Assembly (NCBI RefSeq): GCF_007666205.1 | Contig: NZ_VDOR01000001.1 | Span: 1-64,000 of the forward strand | Source of the DNA: Kocuria palustris | Lineage (GTDB): Bacteria > Actinomycetota > Actinomycetes > Actinomycetales > Micrococcaceae | Length of the DNA: 64,000 bases | Direction of reading: 5' to 3' | Shown: positions 1,804 to 58,071 of the stretch, piece after piece | Numbering within the stretch: the stretch's first letter is position 1 | Layout: the number at the start of each line of letters is the position of its first letter | Notes under the pieces: generated by a model | Told to the model about the DNA's origin: nothing | What the model saw: only the letters and a program-made list of their open reading frames with translations | The model's database searches: none | Program-made: the position numbers and the translations under genes

Positions 1804-3783
1804 ATGACCTCCCGAGACAAGACCACGGACAGCCGGATCGACGAGGGAGACTTCTCCCTGGCCAGCCGCGAGGAGATCGATGTGGTGGTGCAGGCGATGC
1901 GTGATGCAGCGTTGCTGCCCGAGAGCTCGCGGATCACCTATCTGGGCCTGCTCGACCCGCCTCGTGGAGAGCTTCGCGCCGAGATCTCGCACGATCGTCG
2001 TTTCCGTGCCTACATCCTGGACACCGAAGGCGGCCCCACGCTCGACGTGACCATCTCGGCCGCCCGCGGAGAGATCCTGCGAAGCGTGCAGGTGGATTCC
2101 AGCGAGAGCGGGGAGCAGCCCATCATGGAGGAGGAGTTCGAGGTCGTCGAAGCCGTCCTGGCACAGGACGAGCGCTGGCTGGCCGCCCTGGCCGCTCGGG
2201 GCCTTCCGGTCGAGGAGGTCAGGGTCGCACCCCTGTCAGCAGGTGTCTTCGAGTACGAGGAGGAGAAGGGCCGGCGGATCCTTCGCGGCCTGGCCTTCCA
2301 TCAGCAGCACGAGACGGATTCGGCCTGGGCCCACCCGATCGACGGTCTCGTCGCCTACGTCGACGTCACGAACCGGTCCGTGGACCAGGTCCTCGACTTC
2401 GGGCCGGTTCCGATCCCCGAAGAGCACGGGAACTACACCGATCCCGAACTCACAGGCCCGGTCAGAACTTCCCAGAAGCCGATCCGGATCACTCAGCCGG
2501 AGGGTCCCTCTTTCACCGTTGAGGGAGGCAATCACGTCGAATGGGAGAAGTGGTCCCTCGACATCGGGTTCGACATGCGCGAGGGCCTCGTCCTCCAGAA
2601 CATCGCTTTCGATGACGCACAGGGGCGTCGGCGCATTCTCGATCGGGCCTCGATCGCGGAGATGGTGGTGCCCTACGGCGATCCCTCCCCTGTGCGGTCG
2701 TGGCAGAACTACTTCGACACCGGTGAATACCTGGTCGGCCAGTGGGCGAACTCGCTCGAGCTCGGCTGCGACTGCCTGGGCGACATCACCTACCTCTCCC
2801 CATGGGTCGTGAACAACCGAGGAGAGGCGCGTCAGATCAAGAACGGCATCTGCATGCACGAGGAGGACTGGTCGATCCTCTCCAAGCACACCGACCTGTG
2901 GTCGGGGATCGCCTACACCCGGCGCAATCGTCGGCTCGTGATCTCCTTCTTCACCACGGTGGGCAATTACGACTACGGCTTCTACTGGTACCTCTACCTC
3001 GACGGGGCGATCGAGTTCGAGGCGAAAGCCACCGGCATCGTGTTCACCTCTGCGGTCCCCGACGGCACCACGGACTACGCCTCCGAACTGGCCCCCGGGC
3101 TCGGGGCCCCGTACCACCAGCACCTTTTCGGCGCGCGCCTGGACTTCGCGCTGGACGGCGGCACGTCCCGAGTCCTCGAGGAAGAAGCGGTGCGCCTCCC
3201 GTTCTCCGATGAGAACCCCCGTGGCAATGCCTTCACCCGCCGACGGACCGTCCTCGCCTCCGAACTCCAGGCTCAGCGCGATACGGACCAGTCGGCCGGG
3301 CGGAGCTGGGTCGTTCAGAGCGCCCAGCACACCAACCGCCTCGGCCACCCCGTCGGCTACCGACTGCTGCCTGCCGGACTGCCGACCCTGCTCGCGGCCG
3401 AAGGCTCCTCGATCCACCGGCGAGCGACCTTCGCGGCCAAGGCGCTGTGGGTCTCGCAGTATCACGAGGAGGAGCGCTACCCCACCGGGGACTTTCCGAA
3501 TCAGCACTCCGGCGGCGCCGGGCTGCCGGAATGGACCCAGGCGGACCGCCCGCTGGACGGCGAGGACCTGGTCGTGTGGCACTCGTTCGGCCTGACGCAC
3601 TTCCCCCGCCCGGAGGACTGGCCGATCATGCCCGTGGACCGTGTGGGCTTCCGCCTCCTTCCCGACGGGTTCTTCGACCGCTCGCCGGTGCTGGACGTCC
3701 CATCCCCGGAACCGGGATCGTGCCACGTCGGCGACGGGTCCGAGGCTTCGGAGTCCGATGATGGCTGCGGCTGTCAGCACTGA
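1804..3783 (+). CDS. copper amine oxidase (phenylethylamine/tyramine oxidase type)
   Basis: A topaquinone copper amine oxidase of 659 residues. It oxidises a primary amine to aldehyde, ammonia and hydrogen peroxide. The TPQ motif NYDYG puts the cofactor tyrosine at Y389. The catalytic base is D305 in the YFDTGEY motif. The copper ligands are H438 and H440 (HQH) and H599 (THFPRPEDW). The spacing of all five residues matches Arthrobacter globiformis phenylethylamine oxidase with a constant offset of 7. No signal peptide is seen, so it is probably cytoplasmic. The start at 1804 is chosen for GAGGAC about 5 nt upstream; an ATG 24 nt earlier has a weaker site. The C-terminal 20 residues are acidic and Cys-rich (ending CGCQH). 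Its aldehyde product would feed the phenylacetate genes downstream. Confidence 0.95.
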
Positions 3784-4219
3784 GTCGACCGCCCAGGGGA
3801 TGACTCTGCCCTGGGCGTCCGGTGCCGCCGGTCTCAGCTTCGCCTCAGCGCCGGTGCATGTGTGGCTGCTGTTCACCCACCGGCACTCAGCCGTGATGGC
3901 CGCCGCCCTGTGCCTGATGACCGCGGCCTGCGCTCTGTGCGCCGTGCACAGCCTCAGAAGCAGGGCCGGCAATAAGACCCCCGGCCTGCGAGGTCTGCTG
4001 GTGATGGCAGATGCCATGGCCATCACGCATTCCCTCATGCTGTTCTCCCCCGGTGGAGCGGGACACGGACACCACGGCAGTCACGGGCCCCTCGTCTTAT
4101 CGGCCTCGCCGAACACCGAATCCACCGGGGTCTCGCTCCTGCTCCTGGTCGGCCTGGAGCTGGCCGCAGCCATGTGCGCGGCGCTCGCGCTGCGGTCGCG
4201 TCGCCGCACCCTCGCTTGA
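3758..4219 (+). CDS. small His-rich integral membrane protein
   Basis: A 153-residue protein that overlaps the end of the copper amine oxidase by 26 nt. Start at ATGATG (3758), with GGAG just upstream. Four probable membrane helices are visible: around [55 protein letters not shown], and [21 protein letters not shown] His-rich loop GHGHHGSHG lies between helices 3 and 4, and further histidines sit near the helix ends. The layout resembles DUF5134-type actinobacterial membrane proteins, but I cannot confirm that. Translational overlap with a copper enzyme and the His cluster make a metal-related role possible. The function is unknown. Confidence 0.7.
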
Positions 4220-4281
4220 TCCCGGGAGTCGGCAGACCCGCCGGATCATCCCGACCCCATATCCCGATACGGAGAATCGCC

Positions 4282-5826
4282 ATGAACACCGACACCTCGA
4301 CCCGCCCATCCTCGGACTTCCTGGTGATCGGGGCCGGCTCCGCAGGGTGTGTGCTGACCCGACGACTGCTCGATGCAGGACATTCCGTCACTCTGGTCGA
4401 GGCGGGGGATCAGGACATCAATCCGGATATCGACGATGTATCACGGCTCGGGCTTCTCTGGGGATCCCCGGTCGACTGGAACTACTACACCGAGCCCCAG
4501 CCCGGTCTGGACGGCCGCCGTGTGCACCTCCCGCGGGGCAAGGTCCTCGGGGGGTCGCATGCGCTCAACGCAGCCATCTGGGTCCGAGGCGACCGCAAGG
4601 ACTACGACGGCTGGGCAGACAACGGCTGCCCAGGGTGGGGGTGGAGCCAGGTCGAGCCGTACTTCAGGGCCATAGAGGCGTATCCGGACGGAGACCCCGA
4701 TTCCCGGGGCCACGACGGCCCACTGGACATCACCACGCAGTACCCGCACCACCCGATCCAGCAAGCCATGTTCGACGCGACGGTTCAGGAAGGCATCCCC
4801 GAGAATCCCGACTACAACTCCGGAACAGTCGACGGGGTCGGATGGATGCAGCTCAATGTCCGCGACGGCAAGCGGTTCAACACCTGGCGCGCCAACCTGA
4901 AGCCGGTCGCAGATCACCCCCAGCTCAAGCTGGTCACCGGGGGCCATGTCCGCCGACTCATCGTCGAGGGCATGACGGTCACCGGTGTGCAGGTGACCGT
5001 CGAGGGCCAGGACATCGAGTGCTCAGCCGAGGAAGTCGTGCTCTGCGCAGGAGCCATCGGGTCACCGGAGCTCCTCCTGCGCTCGGGCATCGGCCCGGCA
5101 GCGCATCTCCGCGAGGTGGGCATCGATGCCGAAGGGGTCGGTCAGAACCTCCAGGATCATCTGCTGACGCCCGTCGTCTGCACCACGGCGCACCCGATGC
5201 CGACGCCGGAGGTGGCCGCTGCCCAGGTCCACTACTGGGCCAAGTCGGACGCGTCTCTGCCGACCCCCGACACCCAGCCCATCTTCTTCTCGGTGCCCAT
5301 GTACACGACAACTGCCGGAGACCCGATGGCGGGCCCCGAGGAGGGCTTCTCCCTGCTCGCCGGCATCGTCCGCCCGGTTTCGCGAGGACGGCTCACCCTC
5401 TCCGGCCCGGGACGCGAAGACCCCGTGCGGATCGACCTCGGCGCCTTCGCAGCGGAGGAGGACATGCGGTCGATGCTGTTCTCGCTCCGGCAGTGCCGTT
5501 CGATCGTCCGCCAGCCTGCACTGGCGGAGCTGGGCGCGGCCGAGATCCATCCAGGCCCCTCGGTGGGTGATTCAGATGAGGAGCTCATGGCCTACATCCG
5601 AAGCACGACGACCACCTATCACCACCAGGTAGGGACCTGCGCCATGGGGCCCAGCGGCGGCGAGGCCGTCGTCGATCCGGAGTCCTTCCGCGTCCATGGT
5701 CTGCAGGGGCTGCGAGTGGCAGATGCCTCGATCATGCCGCGCGTCCCGACGGGCAACACCAATGCACCCTCGGTCCTCATCGGAGAGAAGGCCGCCGCCT
5801 CGATCACCGGCTCCGTGCCGTTCTGA
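4282..5826 (+). CDS. GMC-family FAD-dependent oxidoreductase (choline/alcohol dehydrogenase type)
   Basis: A 514-residue glucose-methanol-choline oxidoreductase. The FAD-binding GAGSAGCV lies at residues 18-25. The first GMC signature follows (LPRGKVLGGSHALNA). The second signature is GAIGSPELLLRSGIGP near residue 260. The C-terminal active-site region has HHQVGTCAMG and ends with NTNAPSVLIGEKAA. ATG 4282 follows GGAGA with 6 nt spacing. It lies 62 nt after the membrane protein gene and probably shares the amine oxidase transcript. The substrate is not determined: it could oxidise an amino alcohol or aryl alcohol linked to the amine pathway, or be a choline dehydrogenase. Confidence 0.88.
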   Translation: MNTDTSTRPSSDFLVIGAGSAGCVLTRRLLDAGHSVTLVEAGDQDINPDIDDVSRLGLLWGSPVDWNYYTEPQPGLDGRRVHLPRGKVLGGSHALNAAIWVRGDRKDYDGWADNGCPGWGWSQVEPYFRAIEAYPDGDPDSRGHDGPLDITTQYPHHPIQQAMFDATVQEGIPENPDYNSGTVDGVGWMQLNVRDGKRFNTWRANLKPVADHPQLKLVTGGHVRRLIVEGMTVTGVQVTVEGQDIECSAEEVVLCAGAIGSPELLLRSGIGPAAHLREVGIDAEGVGQNLQDHLLTPVVCTTAHPMPTPEVAAAQVHYWAKSDASLPTPDTQPIFFSVPMYTTTAGDPMAGPEEGFSLLAGIVRPVSRGRLTLSGPGREDPVRIDLGAFAAEEDMRSMLFSLRQCRSIVRQPALAELGAAEIHPGPSVGDSDEELMAYIRSTTTTYHHQVGTCAMGPSGGEAVVDPESFRVHGLQGLRVADASIMPRVPTGNTNAPSVLIGEKAAASITGSVPF

Positions 5827-14686: not shown

Positions 14687-16186
14687 TCAGTGCTCGGAGT
14701 GCAGCTGTGACTGGGTGCCAGGCAGGTACCGGCGCAGAAGCACTCCGGTGATGACTGCGCCCACCGCGAGAACGACTGCGACGACCAGCATCACAACGAG
14801 GTAGGCGGAGTCGAAAGCCGTCGCCGCCGCCTGGAGGATCTCTGCGTCACCCTGCGCAGCAGCCTGTGCCTCAGCGATGCTGTTGCCAGCCGCGTCCGGG
14901 GCGCCGTCGGGTAGAACGACGCGGGCGCTGTAGATAGCCGTGAGCAGGCTCCCGAGCACGGACACTGCAATGAGGCTGCCGAACTCGTAGGAGACTTCTT
15001 CGATCGAGGCGGCCATGCCTGCTCGGCGCACCGGCACGTTCCCGATAATCGCGGTGGAGGCGACCGCCACGGCGGCTCCGATACCAGCTCCGGTCAACAG
15101 CAGTCCGAGGATCAGCACGCCGAAGGACGACTGGAATCCGATGACCGTCACCACGACGCCGCCGGTGGCGAAGGCGAGACCGCCGGTGATGAGCGCGAGC
15201 AGTCCGGTGCGGTGCAGGAACGCGCCCCCCAGGAGCGCTGTCGGCAACGCGCCCACGGCGATCGCGGCGACCAAGAGCCCAGCTTCCAGCGGGCTGAATC
15301 CGGCGACCTGCTGGAATCGCTGCGTGGTGACGAGCTGGATGCCCCCGATCGCGAACATCGCGAACGACGCGGCCAGCACTCCGGCAGTGAACGCCGGGTT
15401 GCCGAAGATGGAGAACTCCAACAGAGGTTGCTCCATACCTCGCTGACGGCGCACGAACAGCCAGAACCCGATGGCAGCAACGAGCAGCGCAACAATGATG
15501 GTCGTTGCCGAAGGCGGCGCGTGGCCGATCTCTTTGATGGCCATCACCGTTCCGACAAGCCCGATCATCACCAAGATCGAGGAGATGGCATCCCATCGCT
15601 TCGAGGGATCCGGGTCGTTGGCCGGGCGGATCAGCCAGGTAGCGACCAGCGCCAGCACCACAACGGGCACGTTGATCAAGAACACCGAGCCCCACCAGAA
15701 GAACTCAAGGAGTGTGCCGCCAATAATCGGGCCGAGGGCGAACCCGATGACCGACATACTTCCCCAGACCGCGATGGCGATATTGCGCTCACGCTCGACC
15801 GTGAAAGTGGTGCGGATCAGCGCCAGGGTGGCCGGCATCATCGCTGCCGCACCGACAGCGAGCACAGCACGCGCAGCGATCATGACCTCGGGTGACGGAG
15901 CGAACGCTGCCAGCAGGGAAGCCAGTCCGAAGATCACCAGACCGACAACAAACATCCGCGTGTGGCCGATGCGATCCCCCAGGGTTCCGCTGCCCAGCAA
16001 CAGCCCCGCCATCACCAGGGGGTAGGCATTGATGATCCAGAGGTTCTGTGTGTTCGAAGCCTGCAGTTCCTCAGTCAGCGTCGGCAGGGCCGTGTAGAGA
16101 ATCGAGTTATCCAAGGTGATCAGCAGCAGACCTGCTCCAACCGTCACCAGCAGCGACCAGCGTCGCCTCTTCGTCATCGCGGACAT
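14687..16186 (-). CDS. MFS transporter, DHA2 family (EmrB/QacA-like drug efflux)
   Basis: A 499-residue protein with about 14 predicted membrane helices, the DHA2 topology. Motif A-like GTLGDRIGHTRMFVVGL lies in the first cytoplasmic loop, and the motif C-like GFALGPIIGGTLLEFFWW in helix 5. LDNSILYTALPTL in helix 1 holds the acidic residue found in cation/drug antiporters (D26 region). GGGGAAG lies 6-12 nt before the first ATG; a second ATG is three codons on. It is the first gene of the cargo operon. Family members export quaternary ammonium compounds, dyes or antibiotics; the substrate here cannot be read from sequence. Confidence 0.92.
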   Translation of the reverse strand: MSAMTKRRRWSLLVTVGAGLLLITLDNSILYTALPTLTEELQASNTQNLWIINAYPLVMAGLLLGSGTLGDRIGHTRMFVVGLVIFGLASLLAAFAPSPEVMIAARAVLAVGAAAMMPATLALIRTTFTVERERNIAIAVWGSMSVIGFALGPIIGGTLLEFFWWGSVFLINVPVVVLALVATWLIRPANDPDPSKRWDAISSILVMIGLVGTVMAIKEIGHAPPSATTIIVALLVAAIGFWLFVRRQRGMEQPLLEFSIFGNPAFTAGVLAASFAMFAIGGIQLVTTQRFQQVAGFSPLEAGLLVAAIAVGALPTALLGGAFLHRTGLLALITGGLAFATGGVVVTVIGFQSSFGVLILGLLLTGAGIGAAVAVASTAIIGNVPVRRAGMAASIEEVSYEFGSLIAVSVLGSLLTAIYSARVVLPDGAPDAAGNSIAEAQAAAQGDAEILQAAATAFDSAYLVVMLVVAVVLAVGAVITGVLLRRYLPGTQSQLHSEH

Positions 16187-16214
16187 GCGCGTCTTCCCCT
16201 CGTCGTGAACGACA

Positions 16215-16242
16215 TAACTGTACCAGATGGATGGTGTAGTTA
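16215..16242 (-). promoter_or_regulatory. candidate operator of the transposon TetR repressor
   Basis: TAACTGTACCA and TGGTGTAGTTA form an 11-bp inverted repeat with two mismatches and a 6-bp centre. It ends 29 nt before the efflux-pump start. Promoter-like hexamers (TTAACT, TACAGT) lie inside it on the minus strand. Confidence 0.65.
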
Positions 16243-16518
16243 AGTCGACGGAGGGAGAGACTCACGGCGCGCGCTATGCATGGCGTGCGGGCGGCGAAGC
16301 TTGGAAGGTTTTAGAGCGAAGGCGCGGCACTTCGATGCAGGCAAAACCGGACGAGCTGGTGCCTCAGTTGAGTACAGGTTTATGAGACTTTCAGCGGGTG
16401 GTCGGCCTCAGGTTCGCTTCCTGCGTGAACGCGCTCTCGGGATTGTCTTGCGAAGTCGTCTCGACGGAAAGTGCCTCAAGGCGGTGACTTCCAGGACTTT
16501 CTGCACCATGCTGGGGGT
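16243..16518. other. transposon intergenic region, possible resolution (res) site
   Basis: This stretch lies between the divergent efflux operon and the resolvase gene. In related elements the res site and resolvase promoter lie here. I see a repeated GTGCCTCA (16360-16367 and 16470-16477) and small inverted repeats such as GTCGTCTCGAC, but no clear subsite pattern and no convincing gene. Confidence 0.35.
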
Positions 16519-17121
16519 ATGAGGCTTCTGGGATATACGCGGGTGAGCACGGCGACGCAGGACGCGCAGCTGCAAGTCGATGCGCTGGTGGAGGGCGGGG
16601 TGCAGAAGCGGGACGTGTTCTCCGATGTGACCTCGGGTAGCCGGACCGCGATCGAGCGACCGGGGATGAAACGTCTGCTGGACTACGCCGAGGACGGCGA
16701 CACGGTGGTGGTGTGGCGCATCGACCGGCTGGGCCGGTCCCTGCTCGACGTCCTGAATACGGTCACGCTGCTGCGCGGCCAGGGCGTGAAGATCAGATCG
16801 GTCTCGGACGGGATCGACCCGGAGACGACGTCGGGCCGGATGATGCTGGGCATGCTCGCGACCCTGGCCGAGTACGAGCGCGAGCTGATCACCGAACGGG
16901 TCAATGCCGGGATCGCCGCGGCGAAGCAGAACGGCACCCGCTTCGGCCGACCCCCGGTCGACCCGGCCGTGATCGCGGAGAAGCTCGAAATCGCGGGCGA
17001 TGCCCGCGCGAAGGGCCGCACCGCCGAGGACGCCGCCCGACTCGTCGGCTGGTCCCGGGCGACGCTCTATCGCCATCGGCAGGCGGCCCGTGCCCGCGAG
17101 GCCGTCGCCGAGCAGGTGTGA
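16519..17121 (+). CDS. serine recombinase/resolvase of the transposon
   Basis: A 200-residue small serine recombinase. The catalytic serine is S10 in GYTRVSTATQDAQLQ. The domain continues with VWRIDRLGRSLLDVL and the E helix GRMMLGMLATLAEYERELI. A C-terminal helix-turn-helix (AEDAARLVGWSRATLYRHRQ) binds DNA. It resolves cointegrates formed by replicative transposition. The start at 16519 follows a weak GGGGG; the catalytic motif would be badly placed with longer starts. The stop is one base from the transposase start. Confidence 0.92.
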   Translation: MRLLGYTRVSTATQDAQLQVDALVEGGVQKRDVFSDVTSGSRTAIERPGMKRLLDYAEDGDTVVVWRIDRLGRSLLDVLNTVTLLRGQGVKIRSVSDGIDPETTSGRMMLGMLATLAEYERELITERVNAGIAAAKQNGTRFGRPPVDPAVIAEKLEIAGDARAKGRTAEDAARLVGWSRATLYRHRQAARAREAVAEQV

Positions 17122-17122
17122 G

Positions 17123-18517
17123 GTGGACGGGCCGGCGCGGTGGCGCATCCTGCGGCTGCACGTCGAGGACGGTATCCCGCTGAGCGCCCTGGCCCGGGAG
17201 ACCGGGATCAGCCTGCGCACCCTGGAGCGCTGGCACGCCCGCTACCGTGCCGACGGGTACGCGGGCCTGGAGACAGGCCAGCGCTCGGACGCCGGCGCCC
17301 ACCATCTGCCCAGGGAGCTCGTGCGGTTGATCGAGGGCCTGGCGCTCAGCAAGCCCCGGCCTGCGATCGCCACGATCCACCGCAAGGTCACCGACATCTG
17401 CGGTACCCGAGGGTGGCCGGTGCCCTCCTACGGGGTGGTCCGCTCGATCGCGGGTGCCCTCGATCCGGGCATGGTCACCCTCGCCCTGGAGGGCGCGGCG
17501 TCCTACTGGGACAAGCACGAACTGGTGCTGCGCCGGCACGCCGAGCAACCGAATGCGATGTGGCAAAGTGACCACACGCTGCTCGACATTCTCGTGGTGG
17601 GCGCCGACGGCAAACCAGTCCGCCCCTGGCTGACGACGATCCTCGATGACTGCTCCCGCGCGATCTGCGGCTACACCGTCTTCCTGGGTGCGCCGTCCGC
17701 GATGAACACCGCCCTGGCGCTGCGGCAGGCTATCTGGCACAAGAGCGACCCCGCGTGGCCGATGTGCGGGCTGCCGGACGTGCTCTATGTCGACCACGGC
17801 AGTGACTTCATCAGCCGCCACCTCGCCGGCACCGCTGTTGACCTGCACATCCGGCTGATCCACTCCACCGTCGCCCGTCCCCAGGGCCGGGGCAAGATCG
17901 AGCGGTTCTTCGGCACCGTCAACACCGAGCTTCTCGCTGACCTGCCCGGCCACATCACCGAGGGCCATCCCGCGCCGACGCCGAAGCTGTCCCTGGCCGA
18001 GCTCGACAGCGCGGTGGAGGGGTTCGTGGCCACCTACAACGACCGGATCCACAGCGAAATCGGCACCTCGCCGCGCACCGCGTGGATCGCCGAGGGCTGG
18101 CTGCCGCGCATGCCCGAGAGCCTGGAAGACCTCGACGGGCTGCTGCTCACGGTCGCCCAGTCCCGGGTGGTGCGCCGTGATGGCATCCGCTTCCAGGGGC
18201 TGCGCTACGTCTCCCCGACGCTGGCCGGCTACGTCGGACGGTCAGTAGTGATCCGCTACGACCCGCGCGATATCACTGAGATCCGCGTGTTCGACCACGA
18301 CGAGTTCCTGTGCAAGGCCGTCAACCAGGACCATCACGACGAGAAGATCAGTCTCAAGGAGATCCAGGCTGCCCGCAACGCGCGCCGTCGCGCCCTGCGC
18401 CAAGGCATCAATGAACGGATCGCCGTCGTCGCCGCGCACACCACTGAGACGCCATCGACAGCCGAGCCGCCGGCGCCGCGGCGGAAGTTGAAGGTCTACA
18501 AGGAGGACTTGAGGTGA
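17123..18517 (+). CDS. tniA: DDE transposase (TniA/Tn552 p480-like)
   Basis: A 464-residue Mu-type transposase. An N-terminal helix-turn-helix (GIPLSALARETGISLRTLERW) binds the ends. The integrase core has WQSDHTLLDI (first Asp), LYVDHGSDF (second Asp) and GKIERFFGTVN (Glu). A Mu-C-like beta-barrel follows (RFQGLRYVSPTLAGYVG) and a basic tail. It starts with GTG at 17123, directly after the resolvase stop, and overlaps the ATPase start by 4 nt. It is somewhat shorter than Tn5053 TniA. Symbol by family resemblance. Confidence 0.9.
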   Translation: MDGPARWRILRLHVEDGIPLSALARETGISLRTLERWHARYRADGYAGLETGQRSDAGAHHLPRELVRLIEGLALSKPRPAIATIHRKVTDICGTRGWPVPSYGVVRSIAGALDPGMVTLALEGAASYWDKHELVLRRHAEQPNAMWQSDHTLLDILVVGADGKPVRPWLTTILDDCSRAICGYTVFLGAPSAMNTALALRQAIWHKSDPAWPMCGLPDVLYVDHGSDFISRHLAGTAVDLHIRLIHSTVARPQGRGKIERFFGTVNTELLADLPGHITEGHPAPTPKLSLAELDSAVEGFVATYNDRIHSEIGTSPRTAWIAEGWLPRMPESLEDLDGLLLTVAQSRVVRRDGIRFQGLRYVSPTLAGYVGRSVVIRYDPRDITEIRVFDHDEFLCKAVNQDHHDEKISLKEIQAARNARRRALRQGINERIAVVAAHTTETPSTAEPPAPRRKLKVYKEDLR

Positions 18518-50375: not shown

Positions 50376-51839
50376 ATGACCCAGCATGACGCAGACGGGC
50401 CGCCTCCGGCGGCCGGACTCGCTCCCGGAGAGACCGGCACCGAGCTCAAGCGCGGTCTGACCAACCGGCACATCCAGTTCATCGCCCTCGGCTCGGCCAT
50501 CGGCACCGGCCTGTTCTACGGCTCGGCCTCGGCGATCGCCATGGCCGGCCCGGCCGTTCTGCTGGTCTACCTCGTGGCCGGCTTCGCGGTCTTCATGGTC
50601 ATGCGCGCGCTCGGGGAGATGGCCGTGCGCCACCCGATCCCGGGCTCCTTCGGGCAGTACGCGGCGCGCTACCTCGGCCCGTTCGCCGGCTACGTGACCG
50701 GCTGGACGTTCGTGTTCGAGATGGCGGTCGTGGCCATCGCGGACGTGACGGCCTTCGCGGTCTACATGAGCTTCTGGTTCCCCGAGACCCCCGCCTGGAT
50801 CTGGATCGGCGCGGTCATCCTGTTCATCGGCGCGATCAACACCCGCAACGTGAAGACCTTCGGCGAGCTCGAGTTCTGGCTCTCGAGCATCAAGGTGCTC
50901 GCGATCATCGCGATGATCGTCGGCGGCATCGCCCTGATGATCATGGGCGTCTCCTACGCCCCCGGCGCCGCCCCCGGACCGCACAACCTCGTCGACCACG
51001 GCGGGTTCGCTCCCCAGGGCGTGTGGGGGATGCTCGCCTCGCTGTCCGTCGTGGTCTTCGCCTTCGGCGGCATCGAGACGATCGGCATCACCGCCGGCGA
51101 GTCCGACGACCCCGGGCGCACGATCCCCCGGGCGATCAACGCCGTGCCGTTCCGCATCCTGCTCTTCTACATCGGCGCTCTGGGCGTGATCATGTCGCTG
51201 GTCCCGTGGGACTCCATCGACGGGGAGACCAGCCCGTTCGTGCAGATCTTCGACGCCCTCGGCGTGCCGTGGGCCCCGTCGATCCTGAACATCGTCGTGA
51301 TCACCGCCGCGATCTCGGCGATCAACGCCGACACCTACGGCGCCGGCCGCGTGCTCTTCGGCCTGGCCCGGCAGGGCCACGCGCCCAAGGCCTTCGCCTC
51401 CGTCTCGCGCACCGGCGTCCCGTGGCTGACGGTGATCGGCATGCTCCTGGTGCTCGCCCTGGGCGCGGTGCTCAACACGGTGATGACGAACGTCTTCCAG
51501 GTCATCGCCTCGATCGCGACCTTCGCGACCGTGTGGGTCTGGCTGATGATCCTGCTCTCGCACCTCGCCATGCGCCGGGAGATCGCGCTCAAGGGCCGCC
51601 CGGAGTCCGATTTCAAGGTGCCGCTGTGGCCGGTCGCGTCCTGGGCCGCCGTGGGCTTCGTCGTGCTCGTGATCGTGGTGCTGGGCATCGTCCCGGCGAC
51701 CCGCGGCGCCCTGCTCGTGGGCGTCGTGTGGCTGCTGCTGCTGGGCGTGGGCTACCTGTTCATCCGCGGCCGCGGCCATGCCCGCCCGGACCTCGAGGAC
51801 CACACCTCGACCCTGCCGCAGGTGCCGCCCCGCGGCTGA
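50376..51839 (+). CDS. amino acid permease, APC family (probable histidine transporter)
   Basis: A 487-residue permease with 12 helices. [22 protein letters not shown] lies in helix 1; its first 20 residues are diagnostic of the AAT group. [20 protein letters not shown] follows, and [20 protein letters not shown] in helix 6. It resembles HutT/ProY-type transporters. CAGGAGACCCC precedes the ATG. Being divergent from the IclR-hutH pair suggests histidine uptake; this is contextual. Confidence 0.88.
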
Positions 51840-51864
51840 GCTCCGGCGCCGGGGCCCGGACGGC

Positions 51865-53154
51865 TCAGCGCGAGCTCTCCGGGCCCTGCCCGTTCTCGCC
51901 GGGCGCCCGGTCGCCCTGCTCGCGCTGCTGCTTCCTGATGACCTCGGTGTCGATCGCCCCGGTGATCGCCCGGTCGTCGGCCACGGACTCGCCGGCATAG
52001 CGCTCCAGGCGCTTCTCGTGGCCCTGGGTGTACGTGCGGCGGGGGTCCTCGCGCAGGGTCAGCAGCGCGCGGATGCGGTCGCGGCGGCCGGTCTCCCTGA
52101 CGATCTGCACGCGGCGGCGCAGGGACCAGACCACGAACAGCGCGATCATGAACATCCCGACGTAGCCGATGACCGGGTACAGGTAGGACATCAGCGTCGA
52201 GAAGCCCACGAAGCTGATCGCGTACCCCGCCACGCAGACCAGCGGGAAGACCCAGCGGTAGTGCTGCGGGCGCTCGGCGGTCAGGCGGCGCCCCAGGGCG
52301 TAGAACATGCCGATCGCCGTGTTGAAGATCATCAGGAAGATGATCACGACCATGGTCGAGGCCGCGACCGGGTGGATCGACTCGAAGGTCTTCAGCATGG
52401 GGACGTCGGAGCCGGTCACCTCGGGGATGCGCAGGTAGAGCAGCACGGCGGCCATCACCACGAGCAGCGCGCACATCAGTCCGCCGAAGAAGCCGCCCCA
52501 GCGGGCCTCGCGGGTGTTCGGGAGGTTGCCGCCGATCACCAGGCTCATGGACACGGCCAGCATCATATTCATGCAGGCGTAGTTGATGCCGGAGAGCCAC
52601 CAGGGCCGCACAGGCGTCTCGTTCTGCTGGGCGACCTCGTCGAACGCGGAGGTGTCCACGGGCAGCTGGAGCATCGTGTAGACGAAGGCCGCCAGGACCG
52701 CGATCACGATCAGCGGCGTCACCAGGGAGATGATGTTCGAGACGCGGTCGACGTCGAGCTGGCCCACCGCCAGCACGAGCAGGGTCATCAGCCCCGCTCC
52801 GATCCAGGTGGGGAGGCCGAAGTGCTGGTGGAGGGTGGAGCCGGCACCGGCCAGCATGACGAACCCCATCACGAACAGGGTGAACGTCACCGACCAGTCC
52901 AGGAACCGGGAGACCACCGGGTGGGCCACGTTGCGGAAGACCTTGTAGTGGTTCTCGGCCAGGAAGTAGCTGCCCAGCTGGACGATCACCATCCCGCCGA
53001 CGGCCATGACCACCCCGGAGAGCACGGCGCCCACGATGCCGATGGCCCCGAAGGAGATGAAGTACTGGATCACCTCCTGCCCCGTGGCGAATCCGGCTCC
53101 GACCACCAGCCCCACGAAGGCCAGGGCGGTCATCAGGACGGTGCGCATGCGCAT
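51865..53154 (-). CDS. YkvI-family membrane protein, copy 1
   Basis: A 429-residue protein with about 10 helices. The N terminus ALAFVGLVVGAGFATGQEVI carries the broken-helix GAGFATGQE motif of the YkvI (COG3949) group, a LeuT/APC-fold branch. IFNTAIGMFYALGRR and PVIGYVGMFMI are shared with the next two genes. A cytoplasmic tail of about 80 residues has RRDRIRALLTLREDP, GHEKRL and ITGAIDTEV. GGGAG lies 7 nt before the ATG. It is the third gene in the direction of transcription. Substrate unknown; amino acids or amines are plausible. Confidence 0.87.
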   Translation of the reverse strand: MRMRTVLMTALAFVGLVVGAGFATGQEVIQYFISFGAIGIVGAVLSGVVMAVGGMVIVQLGSYFLAENHYKVFRNVAHPVVSRFLDWSVTFTLFVMGFVMLAGAGSTLHQHFGLPTWIGAGLMTLLVLAVGQLDVDRVSNIISLVTPLIVIAVLAAFVYTMLQLPVDTSAFDEVAQQNETPVRPWWLSGINYACMNMMLAVSMSLVIGGNLPNTREARWGGFFGGLMCALLVVMAAVLLYLRIPEVTGSDVPMLKTFESIHPVAASTMVVIIFLMIFNTAIGMFYALGRRLTAERPQHYRWVFPLVCVAGYAISFVGFSTLMSYLYPVIGYVGMFMIALFVVWSLRRRVQIVRETGRRDRIRALLTLREDPRRTYTQGHEKRLERYAGESVADDRAITGAIDTEVIRKQQREQGDRAPGENGQGPESSR

Positions 53155-53357
53155 GGAGGGCTCCCGGGGAGGCGGTCGATCCGGCGCCTCGACCCGCTCG
53201 GATCCTCGCGGCGGGCGCCTCTGCGAACTCCACCGAGTGTAGGCACCGGGCCGCCCTGGGCCCCGTCGCCCCGGGACGCCGGGGCGGCCGTGTCCGTGCC
53301 GGCGCCTGCCGCCCCGGCGTCCTGCGCACCTCGGCCCCTACGGCTCCGGCCTCTGCC

Positions 53358-54629
53358 TCAGGGGCCCGCGGGACCCCCGTCCGCGCGCTCGCCGCGGGCC
53401 CGGGCCTCCTCGACGACCTCCGTGTCGATCGCCCCGGTCACGGCCTCCCCCTCGGCCGCGGACTCCCGGGCGGCCCGGGCCAGCCGCTGCTCGTGGCCCT
53501 CGGAGAACCGGCGGGCGGGGTCGTCGCGCAGGCGCAGCAGGGCGCGCATGCGGTCGCGGCGGCCGAGCTCCTGGGCGATCAGGCGACGGCTGCGGATCCA
53601 CCACACGACGAAGACGGCGATCATCAGCATCCCGATGAAGCCGATGATCGGGTAGAGGAACGACATCAGCGTCGAGAAGCCCACGAAGCTCAGCCCGTAG
53701 CCCACCAGGCAGATGACGGTGAAGACCACGCGGAAGCGCTGGGGCGCCCGCACCGTGACGCGGCGCCCCAGGGCGTAGAACATCCCGATCGCGGTGTTGA
53801 AGATCATCAGGAAGATGATCACGACCATCACGGCCGAGACCGCGGGGTGGATCGCGTCGAAGAGCATCAGCATGGGGACCTCGGCCCGGCCGACGGTCTC
53901 GATGTTCAGGTAGAGCAGGACCGCCGACATCAGCACCAGGGCGGTGTAGAGCAGCCCGCCCAGGACGCCGCCGACTCCGGCCTCGCGCATGTTCGGGGTG
54001 CTCCCCCCGATCACCAGGCACATCGAGACCGCCACGAGCAGGTTCATGCCCGTGTAGTTCATGCCGGAGAGCCACCAGGGCCGGACCGGGGACTCGGCCT
54101 CCTGCGCGACGGCGCTCAGGTGCGAGAGGTCCGAGGGCAGCGTCAGCAGCGTGTGGACGAAGGCCGCCACGATGGCCAGGACGATCAGCGGGGTGACCGC
54201 CGAGATGACGTTCGAGACCCGGTCGACGTCGAGCTGGCCCACGAGGACGACGAGCAGCGTCATCAGGCCCGCGCCGATCCAGGCCGGCAGGCCGAACTGC
54301 TGCTCCAGGGTCGAGCCGGCCCCGGCGAGCATCACGAAGCCCACCGAGAACAGGGTGAAGGTGACCGAGTAGTCCAGGAACCGCGAGACCACCGGATGCG
54401 CCACGTTGCGGAAGACCGTGGAGTGGTTCCCGGCGAGGAAGTAGCTGCCGAGCTGGATGGTCACCCCGCCCGCGATCACCACGATGATCCCCGACAGCGC
54501 GGCCCCCGCGATGCCGATCGCGCCGAAGGAGATGAAGTACTGGATGATCTCCTGGCCCGTGGCGAATCCCGCCCCGACGATCAGCCCCACGAACGCCAGG
54601 GCGATCTTCACGGTGGTCATGGGTCTCAT
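53358..54629 (-). CDS. YkvI-family membrane protein, copy 2
   Basis: A 423-residue paralogue of the flanking genes, alike along nearly the whole length: VGAGFATGQEIIQYFISFGA, LAGAGSTLEQQFGLPAWIGA, IFNTAIGMFYALGRR and the tail RRDRMRALLRLRDDP, GHEQRL, VTGAIDTEV. The start at 54629 is chosen for GGAGAG 7 nt upstream; a longer in-frame ATG at 54662 has none. The gaps to its neighbours (203 and 173 nt) allow separate promoters. It looks like a product of tandem duplication kept under selection. Confidence 0.87.
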   Translation of the reverse strand: MRPMTTVKIALAFVGLIVGAGFATGQEIIQYFISFGAIGIAGAALSGIIVVIAGGVTIQLGSYFLAGNHSTVFRNVAHPVVSRFLDYSVTFTLFSVGFVMLAGAGSTLEQQFGLPAWIGAGLMTLLVVLVGQLDVDRVSNVISAVTPLIVLAIVAAFVHTLLTLPSDLSHLSAVAQEAESPVRPWWLSGMNYTGMNLLVAVSMCLVIGGSTPNMREAGVGGVLGGLLYTALVLMSAVLLYLNIETVGRAEVPMLMLFDAIHPAVSAVMVVIIFLMIFNTAIGMFYALGRRVTVRAPQRFRVVFTVICLVGYGLSFVGFSTLMSFLYPIIGFIGMLMIAVFVVWWIRSRRLIAQELGRRDRMRALLRLRDDPARRFSEGHEQRLARAARESAAEGEAVTGAIDTEVVEEARARGERADGGPAGP

Positions 54630-54802
54630 CGCGGGCTCTCCTCGCACTCGGCTCCGGCGCACCCCGGGGCCCGGCTGCGCGCCGGTGCGCGGGGACGCGC
54701 CCTTCCGCCCATGCTACGGAGGCCGGGACGCACGGCGGCCCGCGGAGCGCGTCCGCGGGCCGCAGGGCTCAGGAGGCCGTCGAGCTCAGGAGAGCGCCGG
54801 GC

Positions 54803-56107
54803 TCAGGAGACCGCGGTGCTGCCCCCCGCCGAGCCGCCGGGCTTGTCCGCGGCCTCGCGCGCCTGCTCGTCCACATCGTCGAGCTCCTCGACGACCTCCG
54901 AGTCGATGGCCTGGGTGAGCCACTCGCCCTTGGCGGGGGACTCCTGGGCCGCGCGCTGGATGCGCTCGTCGTGGCCCTCGCTGAACTCCTTCTCGGGATC
55001 GTCGCGCAGGCGCAGCAGCGCGCGCAGGCGGACGCGGCGGGCTGCCTCCTCGCCGAGCTCGGCGCGGTGCGTGATCCAGAAGAAGATCATGACGACGACC
55101 ATGATCATGCCGATGTAGCCGATGACCGGGTAGACGTAGGTCATCAGGGCGTCGAAGCCCACGAAGCTCACGGCGTAGCCGATCAGGCACACGATCAGGA
55201 ACACCGGGCGGTACTTCGACGGGCTGCGCGAGGTGAGGCGGCGGCCCAGCGCGTAGAACATGCCGATCGCGGTGTTGAAGATCATCCCGTAGATGATGAA
55301 GACCATGATCACCGCGAAGACCGGGTGGATGGTCTCGAAGAGCTCGAGCATCGGGACAGAGGCCTCGCCGACGGACTCGATGTTGACGTAGAGGACCACG
55401 GCCGCCATGACCAGCAGGACCGTGTAGAGCAGGCCGCCCAGCAGGCCGCCGCGGGCCGCGTCCCGGGGATCGGTCGTGCTGCCGCCGATCAGCAGGCACA
55501 TGGACACGCCCAGGATCAGGGCCAGGCCGTTGTAGTTCAGGGCCGAGAGCAGCCACGGGGAGACGGGCGACTCGGCCTGCTGCGCGATCGCGCCGAGCCC
55601 GGAGGCCTCCGACGGCAGGTTGAACATCGTCCACGCGAAGGCGACGACCACCGCGACGATGATGGCCGGGGTGATCATCGAGATCAGGTTCGAGACCTTG
55701 TCGACGTTCAGCATCCCGGCGAGCATCACGAGCACGGTCATGATGAGCGAGCCCAGCCAGGCGGGGAAGCCGAACTGCTGCTCGAGCGTCGAGCCTGCGC
55801 CGGCGAGCATCACGAAGCCGACGGCGAACAGCGTGATCGTCACGGAGACGTCGAGGAACTTCGAGACCACCGGGTGCGCCACGTTGCGGAAGACCGCGTT
55901 GTGGTCGCGGGCCAGGAAGTAGCTGCCCACCTGGATGATCACGGCGCCCGCCGCGGCCATGACGAGCCCGGAGATCACCGCTCCCAGCAGACCGATCGAG
56001 CCGAAGGAGATGAAGTACTGGATGACCTCCTGGCCCGTGGCGAATCCCGCTCCCACGAGCAGGCCCACGAAGGCCAGGGCGATCTTGAAGGATCTCATCA
56101 GACTCAC
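54803..56107 (-). CDS. YkvI-family membrane protein, copy 3
   Basis: A 434-residue paralogue and the first in the direction of transcription. It starts GTG at 56107 with GAGGAG about 11 nt upstream; an ATG three codons later is possible. It shares VGAGFATGQEVIQYFISFGS, LAGAGSTLEQQFGFPAWLG, IFNTAIGMFYALGRR and the tail RRVRLRALLRLRDDP, GHDERI, LTQAIDSEVVEELDD. It has slightly different loops (QQAESPVSPWLLSALNYNG in place of RPWWLSG), hinting at a different substrate or partner. The C-terminal 25 residues are low complexity. Confidence 0.87.
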   Translation of the reverse strand: MSLMRSFKIALAFVGLLVGAGFATGQEVIQYFISFGSIGLLGAVISGLVMAAAGAVIIQVGSYFLARDHNAVFRNVAHPVVSKFLDVSVTITLFAVGFVMLAGAGSTLEQQFGFPAWLGSLIMTVLVMLAGMLNVDKVSNLISMITPAIIVAVVVAFAWTMFNLPSEASGLGAIAQQAESPVSPWLLSALNYNGLALILGVSMCLLIGGSTTDPRDAARGGLLGGLLYTVLLVMAAVVLYVNIESVGEASVPMLELFETIHPVFAVIMVFIIYGMIFNTAIGMFYALGRRLTSRSPSKYRPVFLIVCLIGYAVSFVGFDALMTYVYPVIGYIGMIMVVVMIFFWITHRAELGEEAARRVRLRALLRLRDDPEKEFSEGHDERIQRAAQESPAKGEWLTQAIDSEVVEELDDVDEQAREAADKPGGSAGGSTAVS

Positions 56108-56841: not shown

Positions 56842-58071
56842 TCAGGCGGCGGGACGCAGCACGAAGCCGCTGCGCGGCAGGGCCGGGAACCGGTTCAGCG
56901 GGATCGACAGGTCCTGGACGGGGACCTCGTAGTCCGCCGCGGACAGCTGCCGGACCACGCGCTTGAGCAGCTCGACGGTGCTCCACTCCCCGGGGCACCG
57001 GTGGTCCTCGGAATGCCGGCCCGCGCCCTGGGCGATGAGCGTGTTCGGGCTCTCCGCCCAGGAGAAGCCCTGGAAGCGCTCCGGCTGGAAGCTCTGCGGA
57101 TCCGTCCAGAGCCGCCGGTCGTGGCATGTTCCGTAGAGATCGAGGATGACCCAGTCGCCGGTGCCGAAGCGGTGGCCGCGCCACTCGAAGGGCTCCTTCA
57201 CGCGGCCCGGGACGGCCGGGAAGAACGGGTAGAACCGGCGCACCTCCTGCACGAAGGGCTCCAGGCCGCTCTCGTCCCCGGCGGCGAAGGACTCGCGCCA
57301 GCGGGGGTTCTGGTCCAGGGCGAGCGCGGCGAACACGATGAAGCGCTCGACCGCGAAGGTCGGGCGCAGGATGTTGATGATCTCGACGGCCGCGACCTCC
57401 GGGGACAGGGGCTGCCCGTCGGCGTCCTCGTGGCGGGCGAAGACCTCGAGGGCCGTGCCCTCCTCCGGACGCAGGCCTCCGGCGCGCACGTCCTCGACGA
57501 GGCCCGCGGCCCACTTCTCCGTCCCGCGGCGGCGCAGCTGGGCATACCAGTTGGCCGGCCCGAGCTGCGCGACGCGGTCGATCATCAGGCCCAGCTCCGT
57601 GCTCAGCCGGCCCACGTCGACCCGGTCCATCGGGATGCCCGCCCACCGGCACGAGGTGCGCGTGAGCACCTCGCGCGCCAGGGCCTGCAGCACGACGGTG
57701 GACCCGCCGGCGCGGCGCATGGCCGCCTGCCACTCCTCGTCGAAGATCTCCCCCAGCCGGTCCATGTCGGCGCTGCCCATCAGCGACAGGAAGGCCGCCT
57801 TGCGGTGCCGGTGGGCCTCGCCGTCGAGGTCCTGGACGGAGCCCTTGTCCTGGAGCAGGTGCTGGATCGTCGGGGGCATCGCGGACTCGCGGGTGAAGCG
57901 CCGCCCGTCGTAGAAGATGCCCGCGGCCTCCTCGCCGCGGATGAAGGTCACCGGCTGCAGCGCGATGCGGCTGGTCAGGACATCGGTCCCCAGCTCGTCG
58001 CACCGCGAGGAGATGTAGGAGTAGCCCTCCCGGAGGAAGGGGATCGTGCTGTCGAACGGCCGACGTGCCAT
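56842..58071 (-). CDS. cytochrome P450 of the CYP152 peroxygenase family
   Basis: A 409-residue heme protein. CYP152 enzymes use hydrogen peroxide to hydroxylate or decarboxylate fatty acids. The acid-binding pair is R236-P237 in INILRPTFAVERF. The heme ligand is C359 in DHRCPGEW. The residue that separates hydroxylases from decarboxylases (Gln in Bacillus P450-BS-beta, His in OleT) is Q80 in KGSVQDLDGEAH, so hydroxylation is expected. The pre-ligand loop GAGRHSEDHRC is unusual for this family, which normally has GGG followed by an acidic residue. No redox partner is needed. AAAGGTGAG lies 6 nt before the ATG. Confidence 0.9.
   Translation of the reverse strand: MARRPFDSTIPFLREGYSYISSRCDELGTDVLTSRIALQPVTFIRGEEAAGIFYDGRRFTRESAMPPTIQHLLQDKGSVQDLDGEAHRHRKAAFLSLMGSADMDRLGEIFDEEWQAAMRRAGGSTVVLQALAREVLTRTSCRWAGIPMDRVDVGRLSTELGLMIDRVAQLGPANWYAQLRRRGTEKWAAGLVEDVRAGGLRPEEGTALEVFARHEDADGQPLSPEVAAVEIINILRPTFAVERFIVFAALALDQNPRWRESFAAGDESGLEPFVQEVRRFYPFFPAVPGRVKEPFEWRGHRFGTGDWVILDLYGTCHDRRLWTDPQSFQPERFQGFSWAESPNTLIAQGAGRHSEDHRCPGEWSTVELLKRVVRQLSAADYEVPVQDLSIPLNRFPALPRSGFVLRPAA

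Follow-up and report, generated by a model that had tools for sequence, protein, structure and literature searches.

Three adjacent genes of Kocuria palustris encode permeases of the YkvI family whose transport core is followed by a conserved C-terminal tail. They lie in the window, the stretch of 64,000 nucleotides analysed here (assembly GCF_007666205.1, contig NZ_VDOR01000001.1, positions 1 to 64,000), where all three are on the minus strand and are transcribed in the order P0003, P0002 and P0001. The array consists of three anciently duplicated members of a tailed YkvI subfamily. Rather than being special in itself, the array belongs to a family that is known yet uncharacterised and whose tailed branch was not found described. 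On balance, the three proteins are probably permeases for an amino-acid-like solute in which the tail serves as a built-in regulatory module, and the copies may differ in substrate or affinity.

The original prediction for this site was three head-to-tail YkvI-family paralogues, and it was accurate. The open reading frames (ORFs) encode 429, 434 and 434 residues, and all three products contain GAGFATGQE, a break in the first transmembrane helix (TM1). P0003 is 62% and 58% identical to its two array neighbours and matches one relative at E 5e-188, which excludes chance likeness. It also aligns over 341 positions, at 29% identity, with a 345-residue Bacillus velezensis protein (L100) encoded in the gene order motB-motA-clpE-X-queC-queD-queE-queF, where X is L100 itself. 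The order clpE-X-queC is taken here to be that of the ykvI locus. The GAGFATG-type break is present in L100 as in the array proteins, and one or two of its residues vary in some tailed relatives. The L100 gene (L100:3974-5011) sits on pDMB05-1, an 807-kb B. velezensis record filed as a plasmid.

Curated models do not recognise this family. The three array proteins have no match above cut-off in Pfam, even when hits are listed to E 10, none above cut-off in NCBIfam at E 0.001, and no match among PDB sequences. None of nine family members (the array proteins and six relatives, Bacillus YkvI included) scores above cut-off in Pfam or NCBIfam. The nearest curated match is that of a plasmid homologue (L101) to TIGR00912, the endospore germination permease model; it scores 25.7 bits, where the cut-off is 139.55.

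The fold is nevertheless familiar. An AlphaFold2 model of P0003 built from 17 sequences (predicted local distance difference test, pLDDT, 78.5; predicted template modelling score, pTM, 0.77) has ten membrane-length helices, the first broken at GAGFATGQE. In a structural comparison, 440 of 989 chains match it at Z 8 or more. The 50 entries listed have Z scores of 26.5-30.2 at only 9-14% identity and include cytosine and choline entries, LAT1, MhsT, ApcT, AdiC, AgcS and LeuT, all of which presumably share the LeuT fold. As modelled, the array core is of the LeuT-fold or APC type, with helices in a 5+5 inverted-repeat arrangement. Most of the listed alignments (44 of 50) extend no further than residue 360 and thus leave out all or most of the tail; the other six reach residues 367-397. 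Ten helices with an inward N terminus would place the tail in the cytoplasm. Read along the protein, the end of TM10 is rich in arginine, and the long loops after TM5 and TM7, assigned to the outside, are acidic.

Plain Bacillus-type YkvI proteins have about 345 residues and end after TM10, and the array proteins do not fit this description. In a set of 72 rows, 6-34 residues follow the core in 27 untailed rows (23 genes, four of them entered twice) and 64-159 residues follow it in 45 tailed rows, with nothing between, so the array is assigned to a tailed subfamily rather than to plain YkvI. These rows comprise 30 of those in the 48-protein tree described below plus later loci; duplicate loci, L125 (a near-copy of L124), L117 (split over two frames) and L111 (in which no frame satisfied the filter) were left out. 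The tail was predicted to be extra to the transport fold, and its absence from 23 of the 68 family genes examined, Bacillus YkvI among them, bears this out; it is not a common feature of all YkvI proteins. It is also not a special mark of the array, because the whole subfamily carries it, single-copy relatives included. A tree built from the 339 columns of the core, without the tail, places the 45 tailed and 23 untailed genes on either side of a single change of tail state (Shimodaira-Hasegawa-like approximate likelihood ratio test, 99), with no untailed protein inside the tailed clade. This is a quick tree with several long branches, that of the Selenomonas protein included, and because it is unrooted, gain and loss of the tail look alike in it.

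The tail is real but shorter than the 80 residues proposed for it. Its conserved part spans about 67 columns (P0003 residues 346-412), beyond which the end is poorly conserved. This segment aligns without gaps in all 38 tailed members of a first set, which includes some near-copies. Across 24 aligned members R348, E354, R358 and L364 never vary, and W344, R360 and S390 hardly do. The motifs named in the original prediction (RALLxLRxDP, GHxxR and an AIDTEV type) are common to the three copies, yet they do not extend to all tailed members: of the 38, 22 have H379 and 23 have P371. Mean net charge changes from +4.3 in the first third, a basic helix, to -2.1 and -4.1 in the second and third. A model of the tail by itself gives high confidence to its first two helices, where pLDDT blocks across tail residues 11-40 are 90-93.

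Domain searches with the tail alone, proposed as a check, returned no shared Pfam domain and no convincing PDB sequence. Ten Pfam families each matched one of 23 rows (best E 7.6e-4) and three PDB chains were hit (best E 0.032); both sets are taken as chance. The tail model has no match among PDB folds (best E 1.9), although so weak a match does not prove that the fold is new. Many genuine tails escaped a regular expression, and a profile used in its place recovers all 45 tailed proteins, including ones outside its training set such as that of Selenomonas (E 5.8e-11). In a search of 29 genomes from the genus and the order, the 16 tail-profile matches below E 1e-10 all fall in YkvI-family genes or fragments, and the other 14 are at E 0.005 or worse.

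Tailed genes are widespread in Corynebacterium and occur also in Rothia, in Kocuria and on a Selenomonas plasmid. At E 0.001 the tailed profile has hits in 134 of the 151 Corynebacterium genomes, in one to six places each. The best match is at E 5e-157 or better in 131 of these; in the other three it is weak (2e-35, 5e-49 and 7e-4), and these three are counted by profile match rather than by a checked tail. Among the Corynebacterium matches listed, every one ends at model positions 405-423 of 426. The Selenomonas ruminantium plasmid pSRC1 encodes a 440-residue tailed membrane protein at 36% identity over 425 positions; four other plasmid homologues, from Bacillus, Priestia, Lysinibacillus and Staphylococcus, are without a tail. 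A family survey found matches in 90 of 295 genomes, K. palustris included. Fragments aside, its matches of at least 38% identity reach residue 404 or beyond, and those of 23-34% end by residue 371. Class-wide and phylum-wide surveys, which scored the four best candidates per genome, gave matches in 3 of 394 and 5 of 396 genomes, with K. palustris counted in both; the others are one tailed genome of Corynebacterium type (G676) and five untailed ones.

Several family genes in these surveys are broken. Tailed genes split over two frames occur in a Corynebacterium genome (G708, L117:6993-8258) and in genome G002 (L016/L022), and are either decaying genes or assembly errors. In genome G013 only a tail-bearing C-terminal part was matched (C1:101329-101661), of the fourth-copy type by sequence. 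The Staphylococcus equorum plasmid NZ_CP013982.1 carries a second YkvI-family homologue (3472-4544) that is split into two annotated genes, adjoins split pieces of an FAD-oxidoreductase and is classed as neither tailed nor untailed. YkvI-family genes are also present in records OR849928 and OR844990, which are filed as Staphylococcus phage; perhaps these genes are host DNA.

The history of the array was reconstructed from a tree of 48 proteins, from which 30 rows (duplicates, near-copies, fragments and decayed copies) had been left out. P0003 pairs with one gene of a sister species, genome G021 (support 98/93), P0002 pairs with another (99/94), and P0001 joins P0002 and its G021 orthologue (100/100). 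A single clade of the three array proteins is rejected (approximately unbiased test, p-AU 1.4e-5). Because P0003 and P0002 pair with separate orthologues and the three-copy clade is rejected, the duplications are older than the split from G021. Codon-aligned DNA identity among the three genes is 70-76%. The phylogeny suggested earlier as a check therefore reveals an old divergence, and not a recent array of copies identical in DNA. Flanking stretches of the two loci are 79-88% identical in DNA. For the two orthologue pairs, whole-gene nonsynonymous divergence (dN) is 0.19 and 0.25 against synonymous divergence (dS) of 0.46 and 0.49, where dS is bounded by extreme GC content at third codon positions (GC3). 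An ancestral tandem pair shared with Rothia kristinae is neither shown nor rejected (p-AU 0.10 and 0.19).

Within the genus, 13 of 25 genomes match the family and 12 have no family match. One of the 13, K. palustris itself, has an intact array, and G021 has two genes and a remnant. Another (G015) has only an untailed copy, and the remaining ten lack an array of this kind but have intact or broken tailed genes. The K. palustris genome (G000; 2.82 Mb in 61 contigs) has five family members in all. The fourth and fifth are on contig C44, one tailed at 38% identity and one untailed at 27%. In this part of C44 (L040:14112-15254 and 16116-17333) the untailed fifth copy adjoins what, by eye, are a GntR-type regulator and a sarcosine-oxidase-beta-like gene. 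Two of the genes on the oxidase side have homologues near the untailed copy of genome G010 (L133), and not near most other untailed copies fetched. This arrangement offers a lead that the fifth copy might transport sarcosine or an N-methyl amino acid.

The copies may also differ in function. P0003 and its orthologue differ from P0001, P0002 and theirs by 16 fixed differences over 409 positions. TM6, with 22 positions, holds four of these (p 0.0075), and the invariant N191-Y192 is closely followed by three of the four; for a narrower stretch, chosen after the data were seen, p is 0.0017. An NYNGL type of TM6 is found in P0003, its G021 orthologue, the first R. kristinae copy and 10 of 26 Corynebacterium rows. 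P0001, P0002, the G021 orthologue of P0002 and the second R. kristinae copy have an M-N type. The idea that the P0003 type is ancestral was dropped, since only those 10 Corynebacterium rows carry it. The TM6 differences weakly suggest that copy 1 (P0003) differs from copies 2 and 3 in substrate or affinity, which lends a little weight to the distinct substrates proposed for the copies; their common regulation is plausible.

Alternating access is the way in which LeuT-type cores transport small solutes, and the GAG break in TM1 resembles the turn that binds carboxylate in amino acid permeases. The array proteins would work in a similar way: access to the core would alternate around the broken TM1 and TM6, and the solute carried would be amino-acid-like. 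The tail would begin as an arginine-rich continuation of TM10 and end in acidic helices. It probably folds against the membrane or inner loops and so sets the rate of transport, much as the tails of BetP and ProP, members of other families, do. P0003 and P0001/P0002, with their different TM6 types, may then handle different substrates or bind them with different affinity. Regulation is the first choice for the tail because it is charged and occupies the same place as the ProP and BetP domains.

Several observations weigh against this account. The G021 orthologue of P0001 has decayed (L060:7995-8675): it has lost two internal stretches, and its tail is interrupted by a stop. Since G021 is the only other genus genome seen with the array, retention of three copies, part of the original prediction, is not strict. 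The tail changes faster than the core: dN of the two orthologue pairs is 0.296 and 0.466 in the tail against 0.167 and 0.194 in the core, and mean pairwise identity falls from 0.57 in the core to 0.45, 0.32 and 0.25 along the tail thirds and 0.12 at the end. Indels of 1-4 residues occur in the tails of seven of the 45 tailed genes in the wider set, all from Corynebacterium. The tail modelled alone reaches a pTM of 0.56, and its third helix has low confidence both there and in the P0003 model. The p value of the TM6 enrichment rises to about 0.08 after correction for 11 segments. Finally, no neighbour is shared across genera among the Kocuria, Rothia and Corynebacterium sites, though amino acid themes recur.

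A more ambitious version of the regulatory account is put forward tentatively. The tail could be an undescribed cytoplasmic sensor domain of one origin that gates a whole LeuT-fold subfamily in Corynebacterium, Kocuria, Rothia and at least one Selenomonas in response to ions, lipids or amino acid pools, as an independent counterpart of the BetP tail. Tandem copies would then share the sensor while their substrate sites diverge.

The main rival of regulation is assembly, and both would fit the present computations. The tail may be an oligomerisation module whose helices pair between protomers, so that the three copies might form hetero-oligomers. The confidently modelled first two helices and the opposite charges along the tail are consistent with such pairing, and tandem pairs and triplets recur in Corynebacterium. 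The low pTM of the isolated tail tells against it. Moreover, single-copy relatives keep the same tail, so hetero-oligomerisation is not its general reason. An oligomerisation role is possible but somewhat doubtful. The suggestion that the three copies are largely redundant, share their substrates and are kept for gene dosage or through drift is about equally doubtful. The decayed P0001 orthologue in G021, the many genus genomes without a family match (the array is in two only) and the TM6 signal that is not significant after correction all agree with it. The copies are nevertheless old, diverged and open in frame, and a quarter of their fixed differences (4/16) lie in TM6.

The tail is unlikely to be a signal for docking or localisation that is recognised by a partner protein, for example a factor of the cell envelope or of proteolysis. 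Its nearly fixed length, its charged pattern and the confinement of strong matches to the YkvI family in the 29 genomes searched would suit such a signal, but no cross-genus neighbour presents itself as a partner, and the same tail occurs in another phylum, in Selenomonas. A functionless neutral relic would explain the fast substitution, the low identity in the last third and the small indels, but is very improbable for a segment that is gap-free in the first set, has four invariant residues and is lost from no member of the tailed clade in the core tree.

The tail leads to a clean question. With one change of state on the tree and strict pairing to one fold, it invites the question of what it does for transport. 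The tailed branch is widespread, multi-copy and testable, and since its profile matches most Corynebacterium genomes, a sizeable share of the transporters of Corynebacterium is unstudied.

The coordinates of the array and its surroundings are given in Table 1. For P0002, an ATG at 54629 (423 residues) is a more likely start than the GTG at 54662, judging from an N-terminal overhang in the alignment with relatives. GC3 of the three genes is 0.97-0.98, and long opposite-strand ORFs over the array (for example, 51778-53655 on the plus strand) are taken to be by-products of high GC. A promoter scan at the array found none. A terminator scan returned a single terminator-like site, inside P0003, with a score at the level of shuffled sequences; it did not report the inverted repeat in the P0003-P0002 gap.

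Table 1. Positions in the window of the array genes, their tails, the gaps between them and adjacent genes
Feature	Position	Strand	Remarks
P0003, array gene 1, tailed YkvI-family permease	54803..56107	-	434 aa, GTG start; orthologue in G021
P0003 tail	54860..55072	-	residues 346-416; modelled helices 348-369, 377-388, 394-421
P0003-P0002 gap, 173 bp (P0002 counted from ATG)	54630..54802	.	GC-rich inverted repeat, arms 54730-54746 and 54752-54768
P0002, array gene 2, tailed permease	53358..54662	-	434 aa from GTG at 54662; orthologue in G021
P0002 C-terminal tail	53382..53594	-	
P0002-P0001 gap, 203 bp	53155..53357	.	perfect 15-nt inverted repeat, 53274-53288 and 53308-53322
P0001, array gene 3, tailed permease	51865..53154	-	429 aa; G021 counterpart is a decayed remnant
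P0001 C-terminal tail	51907..52119	-	
AroP/ProY-type amino acid permease (Pfam AA_permease), convergent to array	50376..51839	+	
Small ORF upstream of P0003	56326-56790	-	counterpart in G021; no Pfam match
CYP152-type fatty-acid peroxygenase, CypC-like	56842-58071	-	434.8 bits, below model cut-off of 600

The cluster of the AroP-like permease that faces the array is also found beside a tailed gene at five other loci in the genus. At other Kocuria sites, the tailed gene faces an Na/alanine symporter and an AroP-like permease, and ilvD is also nearby. Because this facing permease belongs to the same cluster as that of the window, the Kocuria locus appears to be shared. Rothia sites have the tailed gene near leuS. 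At several Corynebacterium sites it is near gatB, which is at times flanked by two or three copies; in genomes G770 and G815 (L124 and L125) three tailed copies surround gatB, a pair on one flank and a single copy on the opposite flank. Other Corynebacterium neighbours are aspartokinase, semialdehyde dehydrogenase and catalase genes; fructosamine-kinase-type and YetF-type genes; MgtE and an amidase; and a Band-7 protein.

Among the papers listed by a literature search, no title or abstract as shown names the tailed YkvI branch, and the search gave no substrate of a YkvI-family protein in the portions of text it returned. Among the closest known systems is YkvI of Bacillus, a membrane protein expressed in sporulation and presumably COG3949. 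Its core, about 340 residues long, is homologous to that of the array proteins and includes the GAGFATG break, but the Bacillus protein has 345 residues and no tail, unlike the array proteins. YkvI and YyaD of Bacillus are assumed here to be paralogues. According to the available excerpts, B. subtilis ykvI is BSU13710 and lies near a region bound by SpoIIID (PMC517825); it is listed as transcribed by sigmaE and as one of the selected hits of a Tn-seq screen that looked for delayed sporulation (PMC4703394).

YyaD is an example of the Putative Amino Acid Permease family (PAAP, TC 2.A.120) of the APC superfamily, for which a LeuT-type fold is expected (PMC10862720, in the portion consulted), as is modelled for the array proteins. 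PAAP is placed among the families said to consist solely of amino acid transporters (PMC5809530, excerpt), and the excerpts on PAAP mention no tail. The AroP/ProY-type neighbour is likewise an amino acid permease of the APC superfamily, yet it belongs to a separate family that matches Pfam AA_permease, a model that none of the three array proteins matches.

For the tail, a comparison is offered by BetP of Corynebacterium glutamicum, which is named among the LeuT-fold transporters of known structure (PMC5809530, excerpt). BetP belongs to another family (BCCT, TC 2.A.15), is a homotrimer and has betaine as its substrate. The C-terminal domains of ProP and BetP shift their contacts with the membrane, with loops or with neighbours and in this way set activity, as described in the part of PMC10710835 that was available. 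A LeuT fold joined to a long cytoplasmic C-terminal domain that controls activity is what BetP and the array proteins may have in common, a parallel solely in the way of working.

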